Assembly: GCF_900177405.1 (NCBI RefSeq)
Contig: NZ_LT840185.1
Location: 248,001-312,000, forward strand
Source: Allosphingosinicella indica
Lineage (GTDB): Bacteria > Pseudomonadota > Alphaproteobacteria > Sphingomonadales > Sphingomonadaceae
Reading direction: 5' to 3'
DNA: 64,000 bases
The stretch's first letter is position 1. The number at the start of each line of letters is the position of its first letter. The notes beneath the pieces were generated by a model, which worked only from the letters and a program-made list of their open reading frames with translations, made no database searches and was not told the DNA's origin. The position numbers were made by a program, and so were the translations under genes. Positions 15,010 to 55,829 of this stretch are shown piece by piece.

Positions 15010-16158
15010 ATGCCGTTTTGGACCTACATTCTAAAATGCTCTGATGGCCGATATTATACCGGCCACACCGATGATTTAGAGGCGCGATTGGGCGCTCATC
15101 AGCGCGGCGAAATCGATGGCTTTACGAGCCGGCGCATGCCGGTCGAGCTGATGTGGGCGGAAGAATTTCCAACTAGGGATGAAGCTTTCGAAGCCGAATG
15201 GCGCGTTGGGGGCTGGTCGCGCGCGAAGAAGGAAGCATTGTTTGCGGGGGATTGGGCAAGCGTAAGCCATTTTGCAAAACCACCTGGTCGGCGAATCTCT
15301 CGACACGCCGTCTCGACAGGCTCGACGGCTGCTCGAGATGAGCGGGTGGAACAAGCAAAAACCGCTCATCTCGAGCCAGCGTCGAGCGAAGTCGAGACGC
15401 ACCGTCGAGAGACCCAATGCGACAAGGTAGGCGCAAACCCAGCCATCGTCCTCGTCCGCCCGCAACTCGGCGAGAATATCGGGAAGGCGGCGCGGGCGAT
15501 GCTCAACTTCGGGCTGACCGACCTCCGCCTCGTCGCGCCGCGTGATGGCTGGCCGAACCCGGCCGCGGGGCCGGCAGCCTCTGGGGCGGACATTGTGCTT
15601 GAGCGGGCACAGGTTTTCGGGACGGTCGCCGAGGCGGTCGGCGATTGCCAGCATGTCTTCGCGACCACGGTGCGCAAGCGCGGGCTGGTCGTCCCGGTCG
15701 TGACACCCGAGGAAGCTGCGGGTCAGGTGCATGCTCTGCCCGGCCGCTCCGCGTTTCTGTTCGGTGCCGAGCGATCAGGGCTCGAAACGGACGAGGTCGC
15801 GTTCGCGCAGGCGATCTGCACAGTGCCGATCAACCCCGGCTTCGGGTCGCTCAACCTCGCGCAGGCCGTGATCCTGATCGCCTATGAGTGGTCGAAAGGC
15901 CGCGATCTCGCGATGCCGACGATCGGCGATGAAGCCGAGCCCCGTGCAACCCAGGCGCAACTCGAAGGCCTGATCGGCCAATTCGACGCGGCGCTCGATT
16001 CCGCAGGCTATTTCTTCCCGCCCGATCGCACACCCGCGACGAAGAATACCATGCGCACCCTGCTCACCAAGGCCGGCTGGTCTAACCGTGAAATACAGGC
16101 GCTACGCGGGATGATCCGATGCCTGTCGGACAAGAAAGAGAGCGGCGACAAGCATTAA
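15010..16158 (+). CDS. trmJ: Fused GIY-YIG nuclease domain and TrmJ-type tRNA/rRNA 2'-O-methyltransferase
   Basis: One uninterrupted 382-residue frame carries two domains normally separate. Residues 1-90 are a GIY-YIG domain of the short UPF0213 type (WTYIL, then YYTGHTDD, with AHQRGEIDGFTSRRMPV). Residues about 142-300 are a SPOUT methyltransferase with PQLGENIGKAARAM, FLFGAERSGLETDE and NPGFGSLNLAQAV, and a C-terminal helical part, as in TrmJ that modifies position 32 of tRNA. Residues about 96-134 are encoded by a palindromic repeat. In-frame GTG codons inside the linker could start a separate TrmJ, but the usual ATG before NPAIVLVRP is absent. Confidence 0.85.
   Translation: MPFWTYILKCSDGRYYTGHTDDLEARLGAHQRGEIDGFTSRRMPVELMWAEEFPTRDEAFEAEWRVGGWSRAKKEALFAGDWASVSHFAKPPGRRISRHAVSTGSTAARDERVEQAKTAHLEPASSEVETHRRETQCDKVGANPAIVLVRPQLGENIGKAARAMLNFGLTDLRLVAPRDGWPNPAAGPAASGADIVLERAQVFGTVAEAVGDCQHVFATTVRKRGLVVPVVTPEEAAGQVHALPGRSAFLFGAERSGLETDEVAFAQAICTVPINPGFGSLNLAQAVILIAYEWSKGRDLAMPTIGDEAEPRATQAQLEGLIGQFDAALDSAGYFFPPDRTPATKNTMRTLLTKAGWSNREIQALRGMIRCLSDKKESGDKH
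15297..15411. repeat. Long palindromic repeat inside the GIY-YIG/TrmJ reading frame
   Basis: Two arms of about 49-50 bases (15297-15345 and 15362-15411) are imperfect reverse complements around a 16-base loop. The inner part, CTCGAGATGAGCGG paired with CCGCTCATCTCGAG, is perfect; the outer part holds CTCTCGAC against GTCGAGAG and TCTCGAC against GTCGAGA. The GTCGAGCGAAGTCGAGAC type of sequence is recognised from intergenic palindromes of sphingomonads. Here it lies between two protein domains and is open in the coding frame. Confidence 0.85.
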
Positions 16159-46960: not shown

Positions 46961-47092
46961 GGCGCCTCCCCTCCCTGCAAGGGAGGTGTCGGGGGTGGGT
47001 TCGGCGGAAGGGTCACGTGCGGCTTGAGCGAAGAGCTCGCTGCGCTCGCTACCCACCCCCGGCCCCTCCCTTGCAGGGAGGGGAGAGGCGCC
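46961..47092. repeat. Palindromic repeat between glyS and ppdK
   Basis: Arms at 46961-47000 and 47051-47092 are inverted: GGCGCCTCCCCTCCCTG and GGGAGGGGAGAGGCGCC at the ends, with GGGGGTGGGT facing ACCCACCCCC inside. Each arm holds its own hairpin (CTCCCTGCAAGGGAG on the left, CTCCCTTGCAGGGAG on the right). The centre carries another short inverted GAGCGAAGAGCTCGCTG area. It looks like a two-hairpin-per-arm intergenic element related in plan to those near 49359 and 51724 though with different loops. Confidence 0.8.
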
Positions 47093-47106: not shown

Positions 47107-49353
47107 TCACCCCTCGATCCGGGAGAAATCGGCGACGCGGTGGACGGCTTTGCGCATCCGCGCGAGCAACGCGAGCCGCGCCTCGCGCTTGGCGGGATCG
47201 GGATCGTTGACCGTCACCTTGTCGAAGAAGGCATCGACCGGCCCACGGAGCGCGGCCAGCGCCGTCATCGCGCGCTCGAACTCCTCGTCCTTCACCGCCT
47301 GCGCGACCTTGGGCTCGGCGATGTCGAGCGCGTCGTCCAGATCGGATTCCTCTGCAAGCGGGCTGTAGGAGAAGCCCTTGTTCCGCCCGTTCTGGCCGCT
47401 CCACTCCTCCTTCTTGAGGATGTTGGCGGCGCGCTTGTAGCCTGCGAGGAGATCAGCGCCCTGCGGCGATTCGACGAAGGATTGCAGCGCCTTCACCCGC
47501 GCGATCATACGGACGATATCGTCCTCCGCCGCGCCATCTTCGCGGCCGAGCGCGAACACCGCGTCGATCAGATCGTGGCGGACGCCCGCCTCGCGCTGCT
47601 GCACCTTCAGGCGATCGGCGAAGAAATCGAGGATCGCCTCGGCGAGATCGTTCGCCTCTTCGATCACCTTGCCGCGCTCGAGATTGGGGGTCAGCGACGA
47701 CTTCCAGCGGACGACGACATGATCGCCGTGGCGGTAGGTGTAGGTGCCGACCTCGGCGGTGATGACATGCTCGTCGTCATCCTCGTCGAGCAGATCGGGG
47801 AAGCTGACCGACGACAGAGCACCGAGCCGCGATACGATGAGCAGCACCGCCGCCTGGACCAGCACGTCGCCCAGCGGCAGGCGCAGCCCAGCCTTGGTCA
47901 GCATCTGAAGCAGGCCGAGCGCGGCGCGGCGGAGCGCGAACGGATCGCGCGAGCCGGTAGGCTTCTCGCCGATCGAGAAGAAGGCGACGAGCGTGTCGAG
48001 GCGATCGGCGATGTTGACCGCCAGCGTCACCGGATCGGCAGGCACCGCGTCGCCCTGCCCCGCCGGCCGGTAATGATCGCGGACCGCACCCGCGATCGCC
48101 TCGCTCTTGCCCTGCGCGCGCGCGAGATAGCCGCCGAGCGTGCCCTGCAGTTCGGGAAACTCACCGACACTTTGCGTCAGGAGATCGGCCTTGGCGAGCC
48201 GCGCGGCGGCAGCGACCTCCGCCTTGTCGGCGCGAACGAATCGCTCTTGCACCAGCCATTCGGCGAGCTTCGCGACGCGCTCCACCTTGGCGGCGACGGT
48301 GCCGAGCTTTTCGTGGAAGACGATCTGGTCGAGCTTCTTCGCCTGCTCTTCGAGCGGCACCTTGAGATCATTCTCCCAGAAGAACTTGGCGTCGCTGAGC
48401 CGCGCCGAGAGCACCTTCTGGTTACCCGCGACGATCGCCGCGCCGCCATCCGACGCGTCGATATTCGCGGTGCAGACGAAGGCGGGCGCAAGCGCGCCGG
48501 CGGCGTCATTGACGGCAAAATACTTCTGATTGGTGCGCATGGTGAGCTGGATCACCTCGCGCGGCACGTCGAGGAAGGCCGGATCGAAGCGGCCGAGCAG
48601 CGGCACCGGCCATTCGGTGAGCCCCGCATTCTCGGCGAGCAGGCCCTCGTCGTCGACCAGCGCCAGCCCCGCGTCCGCGGCGGCCCTGGCGGCGCTCTCG
48701 GCGATGATCGCCCGGCGCTCGGCGGGATCGAGGATGACGTGGCAGGCGCGCAGCTTCTCGGCATAATCGCCCGCGCTGCCGATGGTGATCGGGCCCGGAT
48801 GGTGGAAGCGATGGCCGACGGTCGCGGCGCCCGAGCGGATGCCGGCGATCTCGAAATCGACGATCTCCTCGCCGAGCAGCGCGACGACGCCCTGCAGCGG
48901 GCGGACCCAGCGCAGGCTTTCGGTCGAGACGGATGCGGCGCCCCAGCGCATCGATTTTGGCCAGGGGAAAGCGCGGATGATCGCCGGGATGGCTTCGGCG
49001 AGGACGTCGGCGGTGCGGCGGCCTGGCTGATCGAGCGTCGCGAACCAGATGCCGTCGCGATCGACGAGCTGATCCTGCTTAAGGCCGGTCTTGCGGAGGA
49101 AGCCCTCCAGTGCCTGCGGCGGCGCCGAGGTGCGCGGCCCCTTCACTTCCTCGCTGACCGCCGCCGTCTCCAGCGGCAATCCGCGCGCGACGAGCGCGAG
49201 GCGGCGCGGCGTCGCCCAGGTCTCGACCGCTTCCGCCGCAAGGCCGGCATCCGCAAGCCGTTCGGCGAACAGGCGCGCGAGATCCGCCGACGCCTTCGCC
49301 TGCATCCGCGCCGGAATTTCCTCGGATCGCAGCTCAAGCAGGAAATCGGTCAC
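47107..49353 (-). CDS. glyS: Glycine-tRNA ligase, beta subunit
   Basis: Beta subunit of the bacterial-type alpha2beta2 glycyl-tRNA synthetase, 748 residues, somewhat longer than in E. coli. It begins TDFLLELRSEEIPARM as usual, contains WATPRRLALVARGLP, LTEWPVPLLGRFD, FVCTANID, and an HD-domain-like middle with KADLLTQSVGEFPELQGTLG, plus the C-terminal anticodon-binding part with RVKALQSF. The GTG start overlaps the stop of the DUF559 gene (GTGA); thus the chain glyQ, nuclease, glyS is translated in close coupling. Confidence 0.96.
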   Translation of the reverse strand: MTDFLLELRSEEIPARMQAKASADLARLFAERLADAGLAAEAVETWATPRRLALVARGLPLETAAVSEEVKGPRTSAPPQALEGFLRKTGLKQDQLVDRDGIWFATLDQPGRRTADVLAEAIPAIIRAFPWPKSMRWGAASVSTESLRWVRPLQGVVALLGEEIVDFEIAGIRSGAATVGHRFHHPGPITIGSAGDYAEKLRACHVILDPAERRAIIAESAARAAADAGLALVDDEGLLAENAGLTEWPVPLLGRFDPAFLDVPREVIQLTMRTNQKYFAVNDAAGALAPAFVCTANIDASDGGAAIVAGNQKVLSARLSDAKFFWENDLKVPLEEQAKKLDQIVFHEKLGTVAAKVERVAKLAEWLVQERFVRADKAEVAAAARLAKADLLTQSVGEFPELQGTLGGYLARAQGKSEAIAGAVRDHYRPAGQGDAVPADPVTLAVNIADRLDTLVAFFSIGEKPTGSRDPFALRRAALGLLQMLTKAGLRLPLGDVLVQAAVLLIVSRLGALSSVSFPDLLDEDDDEHVITAEVGTYTYRHGDHVVVRWKSSLTPNLERGKVIEEANDLAEAILDFFADRLKVQQREAGVRHDLIDAVFALGREDGAAEDDIVRMIARVKALQSFVESPQGADLLAGYKRAANILKKEEWSGQNGRNKGFSYSPLAEESDLDDALDIAEPKVAQAVKDEEFERAMTALAALRGPVDAFFDKVTVNDPDPAKREARLALLARMRKAVHRVADFSRIEG

Positions 49354-49817
49354 GCCAGATCCTCCCCGGCACGGGGAGGGGGACCAGCCGCAGCCTGGTG
49401 GAGGGGGTTCTCCGCCTCCGCTATGACCCCGCAGATCACGCTGTCGATGTCACGCAGCACATCCGATGCATTGATATGCAGTATGCGATAGCCGTTTTGT
49501 TTCAGAAACATGTCCCGCCTGTCATCATGGGCGGGGCGATCACCCCAGTCATGTGCTTCGCCGTCGATTTCGACGACGAGCTTCACCGCGAGGCAACAAA
49601 AGTCGGCGATATAAGGGCCGATTGGGTGCTGCCTCCGAAAGCGATGGCCGGTGGCGCTGTCGCGCAGGCGTTGCCACAACAGCACTTCCGGCAAGCTCAT
49701 TTCACGGCGCAAGTCCCGAGCTTGGTAAGTTTCCCGGCGCCGGAGCGGCGATACGCCCCCTCCACCACGCTTCGCGCGGTCCCCCTCCCCGTTCCGGGGA
49801 GGATTTGATTGCGCCAT
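49350..49817 (-). CDS. DUF559 endonuclease-domain protein bracketed by inverted repeats
   Basis: A 155-residue protein of the DUF559 family, whose fold is the PD-(D/E)XK / Vsr-like nuclease type. The core at residues about 30-135 shows LRREMSLPEVLLWQRLRD, RFRRQHPIGPYIADF (Asp72), VVEIDGEAHD (Glu83, Asp85) and RDMFLKQNGYRILHI, consistent with a nuclease active site. Residues about 5-21 and 137-153, of low complexity (GGGGV; AAAGPPPRAGED), are encoded by the flanking palindromic arms. The ATG overlaps the glyQ stop and its stop overlaps the glyS start, so it is placed exactly within the operon. Target and role are unknown; a DNA nuclease role is inferred. Confidence 0.82.
   Translation of the reverse strand: MAQSNPPRNGEGDRAKRGGGGVSPLRRRETYQARDLRREMSLPEVLLWQRLRDSATGHRFRRQHPIGPYIADFCCLAVKLVVEIDGEAHDWGDRPAHDDRRDMFLKQNGYRILHINASDVLRDIDSVICGVIAEAENPLHQAAAGPPPRAGEDLA
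49359..49407 (+). repeat. Family-1 palindromic arm, nuclease 3' side
   Basis: Reads ATCCTCCCCGG then ACGGGGAGGGGGACC and ends GGTGGAGGGGG. It encodes the C-terminal low-complexity residues of the DUF559 protein in reverse orientation. The first hairpin is CCTCCCCG with CGGGGAGG. Confidence 0.85.
49756..49804 (-). repeat. Family-1 palindromic arm, nuclease 5' side
   Basis: On the minus strand it reads ATCCTCCCCGG, A, ACGGGGAGGGGGACC... and ends GGTGGAGGGGG, differing from the other arm mostly in the short second hairpin. It encodes the N-terminal NPPRNGEGDRAKRGGGG-like stretch of the nuclease. Confidence 0.85.
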
Positions 49818-50686
49818 CACGCGGCCCACCCGTTCTTTTCCATCCACGCCTGGCAGCTTCCCTTGGCGAGATCGCGGACGCGGCCGATATAGGCCTGGCG
49901 CTCGGCGACCGAGATGACGCCGCGCGCCTGCAGCGTGTTGAAGATGTGGCTGGCCTTGATCGCCTGATCATAGGCCGGGAGCGGCAGCTTCGCCGCGATG
50001 CAGCGGCCGCATTCCTCGGCGGCGTCCTTGAACCAGCGGAACAAGGTGTCGGTGTTCGCCACCTCGAAGTTCCAGGTGCTGAACTGGCGCTCATTTTCCT
50101 GGAAGACGTCGCCATAGGTCACGCCCTCGTCGTTGAAGGCGAGATCGTAGACGCTGTCGACGCCCTGGATGTACATCGCCAGCCGCTCGAGCCCGTAGGT
50201 GAGTTCGCCCGCGACGGGCTTGCAGTCGAAGCCGCCGACCTGCTGGAAATAGGTGAATTGCGTCACTTCCATGCCGTCGCACCAGACTTCCCAGCCGAGG
50301 CCCCAGGCGCCGAGCGTCGGGCTTTCCCAATCGTCCTCGACGAAGCGGATGTCGTGGAGCAAGGGATCGATGCCGATCGCGGCGAGGCTGCCGAGGTAGA
50401 GGTCCTGGAGGTCCGCAGGGCTGGGCTTCAGGATCACCTGATATTGGTAATAATGGCCGAGCCGATTGGGGTTTTCGCCATAGCGGCCGTCGGTCGGGCG
50501 GCGGCTGGGCTGGACATAGGCGGCCTTCCACGGATCGGGGCCGAGCGCGCGCAAGGTGGTCGCGGGATGGAAAGTGCCCGCGCCCATCTCCATGTCATAG
50601 GGCTGGAGGATGACGCAGCCTCTGTCGCTCCAATAATCGTGGAGCGTCAGGATCAGGCGCTGAAAGCTTAAAGGTTTGGCTGCCAA
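49817..50686 (-). CDS. glyQ: Glycine-tRNA ligase, alpha subunit
   Basis: Alpha subunit of glycyl-tRNA synthetase, about 289 residues. It contains [19 protein letters not shown] near the start, [63 protein letters not shown] and [18 protein letters not shown]. There is no ATG before the conserved N-terminus; the TTG at 50686 gives a length in line with the 300-residue family, and a TTG at 50770 would add an uninformative leader. Its TGA overlaps the DUF559 ATG. Confidence 0.93.
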
Positions 50687-50808
50687 GGTTGCGCACCGCC
50701 GGGAGTGAGAGGGCAAGCCGCTTTGGCGCAATGCAGCATCGCCGGTCAAGCAAGCTGGCGTTAAGGGCAATGACGCCAGTTCGCCGGCGCAAAGGATGAG
50801 GATTGTTC

Positions 50809-51720
50809 ATGCGGTTGATCGATCGGGTTTCGCTCCACTGGAAGAAGGCGGTCGCCGCCGCGGCGGCGCTGGCGCTCCCGGGCTGCGCAACAGTGGATGC
50901 GCGCCATGCCGCCGCCGACCACCCGCGCCCGGCGATGTGGAAGCTCGCCGATGAAGACACGACGATCTACCTGCTCGGCACGATCCACCTGCTGCCGCCG
51001 GGCTATCAGTGGCGCACCGCGGCGATCGATGCGGCGGTGAAGCAGTCCGACGAGCTGGTCGTCGAGGTCGTGCCCGACAAGGATGCGACGCGGATGGCGC
51101 GGCAGATAATGTCGGTGGGCGTCGACGGCAGCCTTCCGCCGCTGCTCGAGCGCGTACCCGCAGACAAGCGCGAGACGCTGCGCGCGCACATGGCGCAGGC
51201 AAAGATGCCCGAGGGCTCGCTCGACAAGCTCAAGACCTGGGCGGCGGCGCTGGCGCTGGTCTCGCGCTCGTTCAAGGACATGGGGTTCGAGGCGGATGCC
51301 GGCGTCGAACGCGGGCTGACCGCCGATTATGCGGGCAAAAAGGTGAGCGGGCTGGAGACCGCCGAGCAGCAGTTTGGCTTCTTCGACAAGCTGAGCGAGG
51401 ACGCGCAACGCGCCTTCCTCACCGCGACGCTCGACGATCCCGCCGCGGCGAAGGACCAGTTCCACGAGATGCTGGCGGCGTGGACGCGCGGCGACGTCGC
51501 GGGGATCGCGAAGAGCTTCAACAGCGACACCTCGCTCTCGCCGGAGCTGCGCGAAGTGCTGCTGACGGAGCGCAACGCGAATTGGGCCGGCTGGCTGCAA
51601 AAGCGGCTCGACGAACCCGGCACGGTGCTGGTCGCGGTCGGCGCCGGCCACCTTGCCGGGCCGGAATCGGTACAAAAGATGCTGAAGGAGCGCGGCCTGA
51701 AGGTCGAGCGCGTGCAGTAG
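50809..51720 (+). CDS. TraB/GumN-family protein
   Basis: A 303-residue exported protein of the TraB/GumN (PF01963) family. It has an N-terminal hydrophobic stretch and lipobox-like LALPGC, then [15 protein letters not shown] with the GTIH motif, [11 protein letters not shown], and near the end the [18 protein letters not shown] motif with the GxGH pair typical of the family. Members are proposed membrane-linked proteases or hydrolases; the activity here is not shown. AAGGATGAGGA upstream supports the ATG at 50809. A palindromic repeat directly follows its stop. Confidence 0.88.
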
Positions 51721-51723
51721 TAA

Positions 51724-51849
51724 GTCCTCCCCGGGCGCTGCCCGGGGAGGGGGACCGTCCGCAGGACGGTGGAGGGGCATTACGGACTCGGCATACCCCT
51801 CCACCGTGCTTCGCATGGTCCCCCTCCCCTGCGTTTCGCAGGGGAGGAT
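51724..51849. repeat. Solo family-1 palindromic element without a gene
   Basis: Left arm 51724-51777 and right arm 51796-51849 are inverted with an 18-base centre. The left arm reads GTCCTCCCCGGG, then a hairpin loop, GGGGAGGGGGACCGTCC and GGTGGAGGGG; the right arm mirrors it, with ACCCCTCCACCG and TCCCCCTCCCCT. This has the same plan as the arms around the DUF559 gene (CCTCCCC, GGGGAGGGGGACC, GGTGGAGGGG). It lies between a TraB gene and a convergent small membrane gene. Confidence 0.85.
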
Positions 51850-51853
51850 TTAT

Positions 51854-52066
51854 TTAGCGCCGGCGGAGCCCGTATCGAATGCCGAACGCGCCAAGAGTCG
51901 CGAGCACTGCCCCCGCGATCGCCCAGCCGGGATTAAAGCCTTCGATTGTCTCGCAATCGCCGACGCAGGCGATCGGCTCGATGCGGACGAGGCCGAGGCC
52001 CTGCACCAGCCACAGCCCGCCCAGCAGCAGCGCCAGCACGCCCAGGATCAGTATAGCGATGCGCAT
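51854..52066 (-). CDS. Small two-helix membrane protein
   Basis: A 70-residue hypothetical protein with two membrane segments ([21 protein letters not shown] and [20 protein letters not shown]), a short loop containing two cysteines ([13 protein letters not shown]), and a basic end (RRR). A GGTGAGGGG box lies before the ATG. Its stop is next to the solo palindromic repeat. It is divergent from rplY with a 159-base gap that holds the rplY promoter. No known family function. Confidence 0.7.
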
Positions 52067-54610: not shown

Positions 54611-54726
54611 GCCCTCTCCCGCTTGCGGGAGAGGGTTGGGTGAGGGTCAGGTGTGAGCAAAGGGTGCGGTGCCGGCAGGCCAGCACACACCCTCTCCCCG
54701 ACCCTCTCCCGCAAGCGGGAGAGGGA
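54611..54726. repeat. Palindromic repeat overlying the ychF ribosome-binding site
   Basis: Left GCCCTCTCCCGCTTGCGGGAG and right CCTCTCCCGCAAGCGGGAG are each hairpins, with GGTTGGGTGAGGGTCAGGTGT facing ACACACCCTCTCCCCGACC. The right-hand end, GCGGGAGAGGGA at about 54715-54726, is a Shine-Dalgarno-like run three bases from the ychF start codon. Confidence 0.85.
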
Positions 54727-54728
54727 GT

Positions 54729-55829
54729 TTGGGTTTTCGTTGCGGTATCGTGGGGCTGCCGAATGTCGGCAAGTCCACCCTGTTCAATGCGCTGACGGAG
54801 ACGGCGGCGGCGCAGGCGGCCAATTACCCCTTCTGCACGATCGAGCCCAACGTCGGCCGCGTCGCAGTGCCCGATCCGCGGCTGCAGACCATCGCCAAGA
54901 TCGGCAAGTCCGCGCAGGTTATCGAGACCCAGCTCGAATTCGTCGACATCGCCGGGCTGGTGCGCGGCGCTAGCAAGGGCGAAGGGCTCGGCAACCAGTT
55001 CCTGGGCAACATCCGCGAGGTGGATGCGATCGTTCATGTGCTGCGCTGCTTCGAGGGCGGCGACGTGACACACGTCGAGGGCAAGGTCGATCCGATCGCG
55101 GATGCGGAGACGGTGGAAACCGAGCTGATGCTCGCCGATCTCGAAAGCCTCGAGAAGCGCGTCCCAGCGCTCGTCAAGAAGGCGCAGCAGGGTGACAAGG
55201 AAGCCAAGATCCAGGCGAGCGTGCTGGGCCAGGCGCTCGACCTGCTGCGCGATTCCAAGCCCGCGCGGCTGACCGAGCCGAAAGACGAGGAAGAGCGCAA
55301 GGCGCTCGACCGCGCACAACTCCTCACTGCCAAGCCGGTGCTCTACGTCTGCAATGTCGACGAGGGCGACGCGGCGGGCGGCAATGCGCACAGCGCGCGG
55401 GTGTTCGAAAAGGCGGCGGCGGACGGCGCCAAGGCGGTGGTCATCTCCGCCGCGATCGAGGCGGAAATCGCGACGATGCCGATGGAGGATCGCAAGGATT
55501 TTCTCGGCGATCTCGGGCTCGAGGAAACCGGCCTCGCGCGAATCATCCGCGCCGGCTACGATCTCCTCCATCTCATCACCTTCTTCACCGTAGGCCCCAA
55601 GGAAGCGCGCGCCTGGACGGTGGAAAAGGGATCGAAGGCGCCCCAGGCCGCGGGCGCGATCCATTCCGACTTCGAACGCGGATTCATCCGCGCCGAGACG
55701 ATCGCCTATGACGATTTCGTCGCCAGCGGCGGCGAGGCAGGCGCGCGCGATGCCGGCAAGCTCCGCTCCGAAGGCAAGGACTATGTCACCCGCGACGGCG
55801 ACATCATGCTGTTCCGCTTCAACGTGTAG
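54729..55829 (+). CDS. ychF: YchF, ribosome-associated GTPase/ATPase
   Basis: Obg-family P-loop protein (366 aa) with ATPase activity. G1 is [19 protein letters not shown]3 [16 protein letters not shown], the NVDEG segment replaces the usual NKxD, and the TGS domain is at the C-terminus (about 282-364) with [16 protein letters not shown]. It starts at a TTG encoding the usual first residue of [11 protein letters not shown], directly after a palindrome, so the repeat supplies its ribosome-binding site. An in-frame ATG at 54669 inside the palindrome would add 20 residues of repeat-derived sequence. Confidence 0.95.

Follow-up and report, generated by a model that had tools for sequence, protein, structure and literature searches.

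Why does a gene for a small nuclease of the family DUF559 stand exactly between glyQ and glyS, an essential gene pair, with an inverted palindromic arm at each of its ends? The question is raised by a 64-kb window of Allosphingosinicella indica DNA (contig NZ_LT840185.1, positions 248,001 to 312,000 of the forward strand), the term window meaning here the whole stretch that was analyzed. An earlier note on this DNA had proposed that the nuclease and the palindrome travel together as a mobile or homing-like unit, analogous in logic to the repetitive extragenic palindromic (REP) sequences and their REP-associated tyrosine transposases (RAYTs). The results below indicate that the locus probably holds one form of a palindromic repeat element, which exists with a DUF559 gene between its arms and also as gene-less doublets. 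Such a system would resemble the REP doublets forming hairpins (REPINs) that accompany RAYTs, with an unrelated nuclease in the place of the transposase.

The DUF559 gene at the glyQ-glyS junction

The genome holding the window is a single contig of 2.81 Mb, and the positions of the features are given in Table 1. The gene order on the minus strand is glyQ, DUF559, glyS, and the three genes are joined by overlapping stop and start codons. At the first joint, TGATG, the start of the DUF559 gene overlaps the glyQ stop; at the second, GTGA, its stop overlaps the GTG start of glyS. We take the outer genes to be glyQ, from its protein and its position beside glyS, and glyS; the N-terminal motif of the glyS product served to find the glyQ-glyS junction in relatives. 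The DUF559 frame runs from the ATG at 49817 to the TGA at 49350-49352 and is open through both arms, and upstream of this ATG it stays open to a GTG at 49847. In the 165-residue product of the longer frame, which begins at the GTG, residues 39-142 matched the profile PF04480 (E 2.3e-28) with a score of 98.7 bits against a curated cut-off of 20.6, which places the protein in DUF559. Its closest named relatives are those of sphingomonads.

The arms of the window gene form an inverted pair of 52 nt each, 87% complementary and 348 nt apart (arm score 35). Each reads, from outside to inside, CCTCCCC, a loop, GGGGAGG, a second hairpin (GGGACC...GGT), and GGAGGGG. At up to three mismatches the arm motif was found at nine places in the window genome, versus none for the reversed pattern. 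Each of the three PF04480 genes in this genome lies between inverted arms, which in one case are of a different type. The description of the locus in the earlier note was therefore confirmed: the PF04480 match and the arms bear out an arm-flanked DUF559 gene between glyQ and glyS, the 49-base arms noted there fall inside the 52-nt arms found here, and the read-through of both arms and the overlaps with the neighboring genes are present in the sequence. No GTAG tag was seen by eye at the hairpin foot of the window arms, and no scan for it was run.

The earlier note had also pointed out that the arms encode the ends of the protein. Both arms were read through in 52 of 96 DUF559 loci. The 5' arm was open in the core frame in 64 loci, versus 55 and 66 in the other two frames, and the 3' arm in 74, versus 81 and 75. 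Because read-through shows no frame preference, the arms were rejected as functional protein ends, and the coding of these ends is a by-product and not a selected feature.

Inverted arms bracket DUF559 genes within and beyond the genus

Inverted arms were called at a score of at least 18, a threshold chosen after the comparison of the first 72 loci with controls had been seen. The genus survey covered 26 genomes, of which 25 have DUF559, with 119 PF04480 rows (two rows of genome G010 are one place). The main arm test comprised 112 places, three of them untestable at contig ends, and the other six places were tested separately, two being untestable. Inverted arms were present at 97 of the 113 testable places (96/109 in the main test and 1/4 of the remainder). 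Among the first 72 loci, 65 had arms, compared with 5 of 1669 control positions, which were drawn only from loci of at least 9 kb.

The association extended beyond the genus. Sixty-nine loci from 68 genomes were examined, best-scoring places first, and 44 had arms versus 1 of 145 controls; by rank, these were 8/9 in the same family, 20/33 in the same class, and 16/27 in the same phylum. A set of named loci, mostly from sphingomonads, gave arms in 73/78 versus 1/470 controls, a set that leans to arm type A because the query carried arm-encoded tails, and from which 2 of 80 loci had been dropped with the core not found. Four of the five named loci under the threshold have arm-like matches at 16-17. 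Arms were also found in 5/6 loci from plasmid records and, at a score of at least 18, in three of six further records tested, those of Pseudanabaena, Deinococcus, and Azospirillum lipoferum. Thus, arms elsewhere are tied to DUF559 genes, inside the genus and outside it, one of the two points on which the earlier note had let its idea stand or fall.

Arm type follows the nuclease clade

A tree was built from 94 of the 96 armed nuclease cores, leaving out one short core and one with a stop codon; a broken-frame gene of G010, read straight through in one frame, makes a long branch. The five arm types need 10 changes on this tree, compared with 53.4 for shuffled labels (0/200). Type A, the type of the window arms, forms a single clade (32/32, support 100/99). 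The nearest protein neighbor had the same arm type in 84 of 94 cases versus 20.7 expected. Because 16 of the 96 labels had been set by hand, before the tree was made, a label-free test was added, which gave a Mantel r of 0.67 (0/1000 permutations) and, for pairs below 45% identity, an r of 0.32 (0/1000). Arm type co-diverges with the nuclease clade.

Gene-less doublets and genome co-occurrence

Matches to the type A motif ranged from 0 to 205 per genome in the genus, and the reversed pattern had none in all 26 genomes. The window genome has 11 type A sites away from DUF559 genes. Each is an inverted doublet whose two copies are oriented to each other like the arms of a DUF559 gene, and in five the partner copy is degenerate. 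Nine pairs from three other genomes, which were selected because they were paired, have this structure too. The spacers measured in doublets were 17-30 nt long. The 22 genus genomes with a clade A nuclease had higher type A copy numbers (0-205) than the four without one (0, 1, 1, and 14; P = 0.007); this test is weak, because copy number is correlated almost as closely with the number of DUF559 genes from other clades. Sixteen genes without measured arms were assigned to a clade by nearest neighbor.

Across 299 genomes of the phylum, at least five palindromes of the form CCCTCTCCC(2-8)GGGAGAGGG were present in 44 of 77 genomes with strong DUF559 (E 1e-20 or better) versus 13 of 222 without (odds ratio, 21), as counted with this single pattern and regardless of shared ancestry. 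The window genome gave no match to the Y1 transposase profile PF01797, nor did 15 of the 26 genus genomes, including that with 205 copies, and RAYT was rejected on these grounds as a general mover of the repeats.

Two genomes showed further particulars. On one contig of G005, ten type A repeats stand in tandem at exact 169-nt steps, and the count of 71 type A copies in this genome is inflated because of the array. G008, the only genus genome without a DUF559 match, holds one type A copy and, downstream of yqeY, what appears by eye to be a decayed DUF559 relic.

Empty and occupied sites

The glyQ-glyS junction was compared in 25 genomes. A DUF559 gene with arms was present in two (the window genome and G023), gene-less triplex-type doublets in six, one of them (in G016) in the opposite orientation, and inserted sequence of other kinds, judged by eye to be mostly different palindromes, in nine; nothing was inserted in the remaining eight (overlap to 27 nt). 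The empty sites that the earlier note had proposed to look for in relatives therefore exist, and the gene was not found there without its arms. At a peptidase-thioesterase site, DUF559 was present in 2 of 23 genomes, and a thioesterase-like frame lay within the 170 nt read in 11 (by eye). Outside the genus, Sinorhizobium sp. K101 has a DUF559 gene between two inverted units of about 130 nt, and at the same joint in Shinella sp. PSBB067 both the gene and the inverted units are missing, an empty site. At glyQ-glyS, peptidase-thioesterase, and the Shinella joint, the gene is thus absent from an otherwise equal site in relatives, as is asked of a homing gene. In Sphingomonas parapaucimobilis, elements were found inside sufB-sufC and between transhydrogenase genes. 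No clear target-site duplication was seen by eye at glyQ-glyS or at the Sinorhizobium/Shinella junction.

The yqeY-dnaG site showed a different history. DUF559 was present there in 8 of the 24 genus genomes read at this site, and in a ninth, G019, the contig breaks at the site and DUF559 adjoins yqeY. The insertion looks old, because these nine genes fall in one supported tree group of 15.

The arms as folded repeats

Of 192 arms, 178 have the first hairpin, and in 159 of these the third tract mirrors the second with no more than a single mismatch (A to T being allowed). Of 151 asymmetric tracts, 94 fit the mirror better, 18 fit the direct copy better, and 39 fit both equally; in subtype B3 the balance is reversed (direct copy 12 versus mirror 4). 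We take this mirror pattern to be the rule of purine-type intrastrand triplexes, the published class II C-G-G motif. The second loop of type A is a hairpin: 102 distinct stems had 98.3% of positions paired compared with 41% in letter shuffles, in statistics taken from the 167 of 216 arms that fit the pattern used. A GNA triloop was present in 79 of 97 type A second hairpins of odd length. In DNA, loops of the C-GNA-G form have exceptional stability, a hint that the arms are read as folded DNA. Mini-hairpins of extraordinary stability, in DNA and RNA, are described in PMC10527192. When DNA folds were compared with shuffles, the doublet at 51715-51860 had a z of -8.9 and the right window arm a z of -3.5. 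G-quadruplex formation was rejected as a common feature of the arms, since the strict motif occurred in only 1 of 64 type A arms; it is possible for the B types, with the motif in 26/34 B1, 37/42 B2, 18/20 B3, and 8/32 C arms.

The DUF559 arms fit the published BoxC/PIT intrastrand-triplex repeat in architecture. According to PMC4666352, BoxC/PIT/TM repeats occur in 23 copies in E. coli K-12, with five inverted pairs, in intergenic positions, and also in cyanobacteria, Neisseria, and Pseudomonas; a triplex is published for the E. coli motif, and the authors of that paper saw no mobility gene associated with the repeats and left their origin unexplained. The arms have the same pyrimidine tract, purine tract, and mirrored purine tract, that is, a C-tract, loop, G-tract, loop, and third tract, and form inverted pairs, a match by architecture. 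They differ in two ways: BoxC/PIT/TM repeats are described as orphan repeats without a mobility gene nearby, and the second loop of type A arms contains a hairpin.

The nuclease

Residues E44, W48, Q63, D72, E83, D85, and H89 were invariant in 41 aligned sequences, and the active-site pattern (Glu, Trp, Gln, Asp, Glu-x-Asp, His) was kept in 174 of 181 cores. The predicted model had a mean predicted local distance difference test score of 81.6, mostly above 90 in the core and about 55-70 in the arm-encoded ends. Its nearest fold match was 3hrl from Neisseria gonorrhoeae, followed by the homing endonuclease I-Bth0305I (3r3p), which was also matched by sequence profile (E 2e-5); Vsr (1vsr) came sixth. 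I-Bth0305I and Vsr thus have the predicted fold in common with the window protein. To our knowledge, neither I-Bth0305I-type nor Vsr enzymes have inverted palindromes on both sides together with gene-less doublets dispersed elsewhere. At the window locus no intron or intein came to notice, though none was searched for. A defence-system annotation was rejected, the only match being a weak one to DpdF (E 0.0012), and in phages the window protein had two weak matches.

Comparison with REPIN/RAYT systems and alternative explanations

RAYT systems, as described in PMC3116915 and PMC3733652, have an enzyme gene flanked by palindromes and present in single or few copies, dispersed gene-less inverted doublets, and co-divergence of repeat and enzyme. 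The DUF559 gene is likewise flanked by repeats, and gene-less inverted doublets are likewise dispersed. The enzymes differ, however, DUF559 being a Vsr-like PD-(D/E)XK nuclease and RAYT a Y1 (HuH) transposase; so do the repeats, which are triplex/hairpin units with G/C-tracts in one case and GTAG-tagged hairpins in the other. Because both enzyme and repeat differ, we do not count the DUF559 system as a member of REPIN/RAYT. The suggestion in the earlier note of a RAYT-like logic with a different enzyme is nevertheless supported, by the bracketing, the gene-less doublets, and an enzyme that matches PF04480 and not PF01797. Its suggestion of an undescribed system holds in part: we found no description of a link between DUF559 and palindromic repeats, in a literature search that omitted most subscription papers and bioRxiv, whereas the arm repeats, with their BoxC/PIT architecture, are not new in kind.

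We infer that DUF559 may recognize the arms, cleave them, and transpose the element. The nuclease would bind the folded arm, as single-stranded or extruded DNA and perhaps at replication forks, and would nick or cut at its foot. The ensuing repair or replication would then place new copies in intergenic sites, more often of the gene-less doublet and only rarely of the gene-bearing unit. A gene once placed could persist long at one site, as at yqeY-dnaG.

Several observations weigh against a dedicated, mobile pair of this kind. Arms at the threshold were absent from 16 of the 113 genus places (three of these being short or weak matches) and from 25 of the 69 loci outside the genus, and the one gene tested in Azospirillum brasilense had none (score 14). 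A DUF559 gene of Neisseria gonorrhoeae, possibly the one behind 3hrl, is followed at 187 nt by a strict triplex motif and preceded by a near copy of it, and these copies are direct, not inverted. E. coli ycjD, a DUF559 gene that lies between sapF and fabI in annotated strains, is not bracketed. In the genus, the number of other-clade DUF559 genes tracks type A copy number nearly as well as that of clade A (rho 0.56 versus 0.61), and G013, whose clade A gene lies at a contig end, is without type A copies. In the phylum, 13 genomes without strong DUF559 hold 5-107 palindromes, 33 of the 77 with strong DUF559 hold fewer than five, and the co-occurrence counts are uncorrected for phylogeny. For the left window arm, the fold was no better than that of shuffles (z -0.95). 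The element at the yqeY site looks vertically kept, no movement was seen within a strain set, and neither excision nor target duplication was demonstrated. Accordingly, of the mobile or homing-like unit proposed in the earlier note, the recurrence of nuclease and palindrome as a unit stands, while strict homing and actual movement were not borne out.

The main rival is that another agent spreads the doublets and that DUF559 is a homing-type gene, which invades their spacers by a cut and the repair of the break. The gene does occupy the position of the spacer in a gene-less doublet, a homing endonuclease is among the nearest folds, and target specificity would yield clade-specific arms. We nevertheless regard this explanation as unlikely. 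No other mobilizer was found, Y1 transposases being the only ones searched for (with no match in 15 of 26 genomes), the palindromes are rarer in genomes without DUF559, and the cutting of tens to hundreds of genomic doublets should harm the host.

Somewhat less probable still is that DUF559 is a Vsr-like nuclease of structure-specific or mismatch repair that tames folded repeats, with selection keeping the pair together and neither partner mobile now. Vsr is among the fold matches, and a study on the Caulobacter DUF559 protein VsrA reports an SOS response in part of the cells lacking the methyltransferase ScmA, for which its authors propose very-short-patch repair (PMC12907096). Repair would explain the activity of the enzyme but not its direct bracketing, and it leaves unexplained why a genome has several paralogues, each with its own arm type, as well as the doublets at sites empty elsewhere and the empty Shinella site. 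A coincidence, in which palindromes and DUF559 genes merely gather in the same tolerant intergenic gaps, finds a footing in glyQ-glyS as a hot spot (the nine genomes with other inserted sequence), but the rarity of arms at the DUF559 controls and at those for GIY-YIG genes (below), the correspondence of arm type and nuclease clade, and the armless UvrC genes make it very improbable, and we rejected it. The two-form palindromic element with its own nuclease therefore remains the reading that we favor.

A parallel pairing of GIY-YIG genes with CGTC-type palindromes

GIY-YIG genes of the same genus showed a similar arrangement. Of the 94 GIY-YIG rows, frame length and score assigned 24 to UvrC; three fragments were omitted, and 67 genes were tested, one being untestable. 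Inverted arms bracketed 57 of the 66 testable PF01541 genes other than UvrC, compared with 1 of 142 controls; a few of the 66 do not clearly belong to either main kind, and one of these resembles a UvrC fragment. UvrC, a host gene with a GIY-YIG domain, had arms in 0 of 4 tested. By coarse patterns, GVTxDL-type genes had CGTCAT...-type arms in 18 of 30 cases, and GHTDDL-type genes had arms like CGTCCCGAGCGAAGTCGAGG in 19 of 27. At some of the yqeY sites that lack DUF559, a GIY-YIG gene adjoins a different palindrome. The GIY-YIG gene of the window itself (GHTDDL type, 15016-15231) was without arms (score 10).

CGTC REPs lack a dedicated transposase according to PMC3733652. Like the DUF559 arms, CGTC-type REPs are palindromes, mostly of alphaproteobacteria, that form inverted pairs at some of the same sites; they differ in sequence, and here they bracket GIY-YIG genes and not DUF559. 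Our literature search found no paper combining GIY-YIG and repetitive extragenic palindromic sequences. The odds are about even that two unrelated small nuclease folds, DUF559 and GIY-YIG, each create and spread a large group of orphan palindromes as its dedicated partner, namely the BoxC/PIT triplex repeats and the CGTC-type REPs, with REP systems as a convergent class and RAYT as only one branch of it. If so, a REP system would be a folded DNA repeat together with whichever small nuclease reads that repeat, and nuclease folds would be added to the candidate movers of REPs. The DUF559 pairing may supply the missing partner of a common orphan repeat family and would suggest a function for a large family of "unknown function." Both pairings make the two open questions on orphan repeats testable with small enzymes and short oligonucleotides.

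Other features of the window and DUF559 genes in other settings

Besides the gene-bearing locus, the window contains three gene-less inverted doublets of different repeat types (Table 1).

Table 1. Positions of the DUF559 element, its neighboring genes, and gene-less doublets in the 64-kb window
Feature	Position	Strand	Remarks
DUF559 (Vsr-like / EDxHD PD-(D/E)XK) nuclease gene	49350..49817	-	155 aa from ATG
Nuclease core, PF04480	49422..49733	-	Profile match, E 2.2e-28 (genome positions 297422-297733)
Arm at 3' end of DUF559 gene, type A	49356..49407	+	C-tract 49361-49367, loop, G-tract 49373-49379; second hairpin 49380-49399; mirrored G-tract 49400-49406
Arm at 5' end of DUF559 gene, inverted copy	49756..49807	-	C-tract complement 49796-49802; G-tract complement 49784-49790; mirrored G-tract complement 49757-49763
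glyQ, glycyl-tRNA synthetase alpha subunit (presumed)	49817..50770	-	Extent as TTG frame
glyS, glycyl-tRNA synthetase beta subunit (presumed)	47107..49353	-	Open reading frame
Gene-less inverted doublet, type A (REPIN-like), 18-nt spacer	51726..51847		Motif scan and DNA fold
Inverted doublet of another triplex-type repeat, just beyond the glyS end	46970..47083		Motif scan
Inverted doublet of CCCTCTCCC/GGGAGAGGG type	54612..54733		Motif scan

In E. coli, palindromes of similar look follow ycjD (2310-2562 of the locus read, by eye), and a 49-nt stretch of one of them occurs at a median of 14 places per genome. A ycjD match was present in 3365 of 5426 E. coli genomes and absent from the other 2061; strain EcE.ESBL.COL has efflux genes after sapF instead. 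In Azospirillum, the DUF559 gene lies upstream of a prfA-like sequence, at the same place in all seven records found, of which one was tested and is without arms; the armless gene is possibly a domesticated copy. In Synechocystis and Picosynechococcus, DUF559 genes stand beside genes annotated as BREX PglX or DUF1156, where a second life in defence islands is possible.

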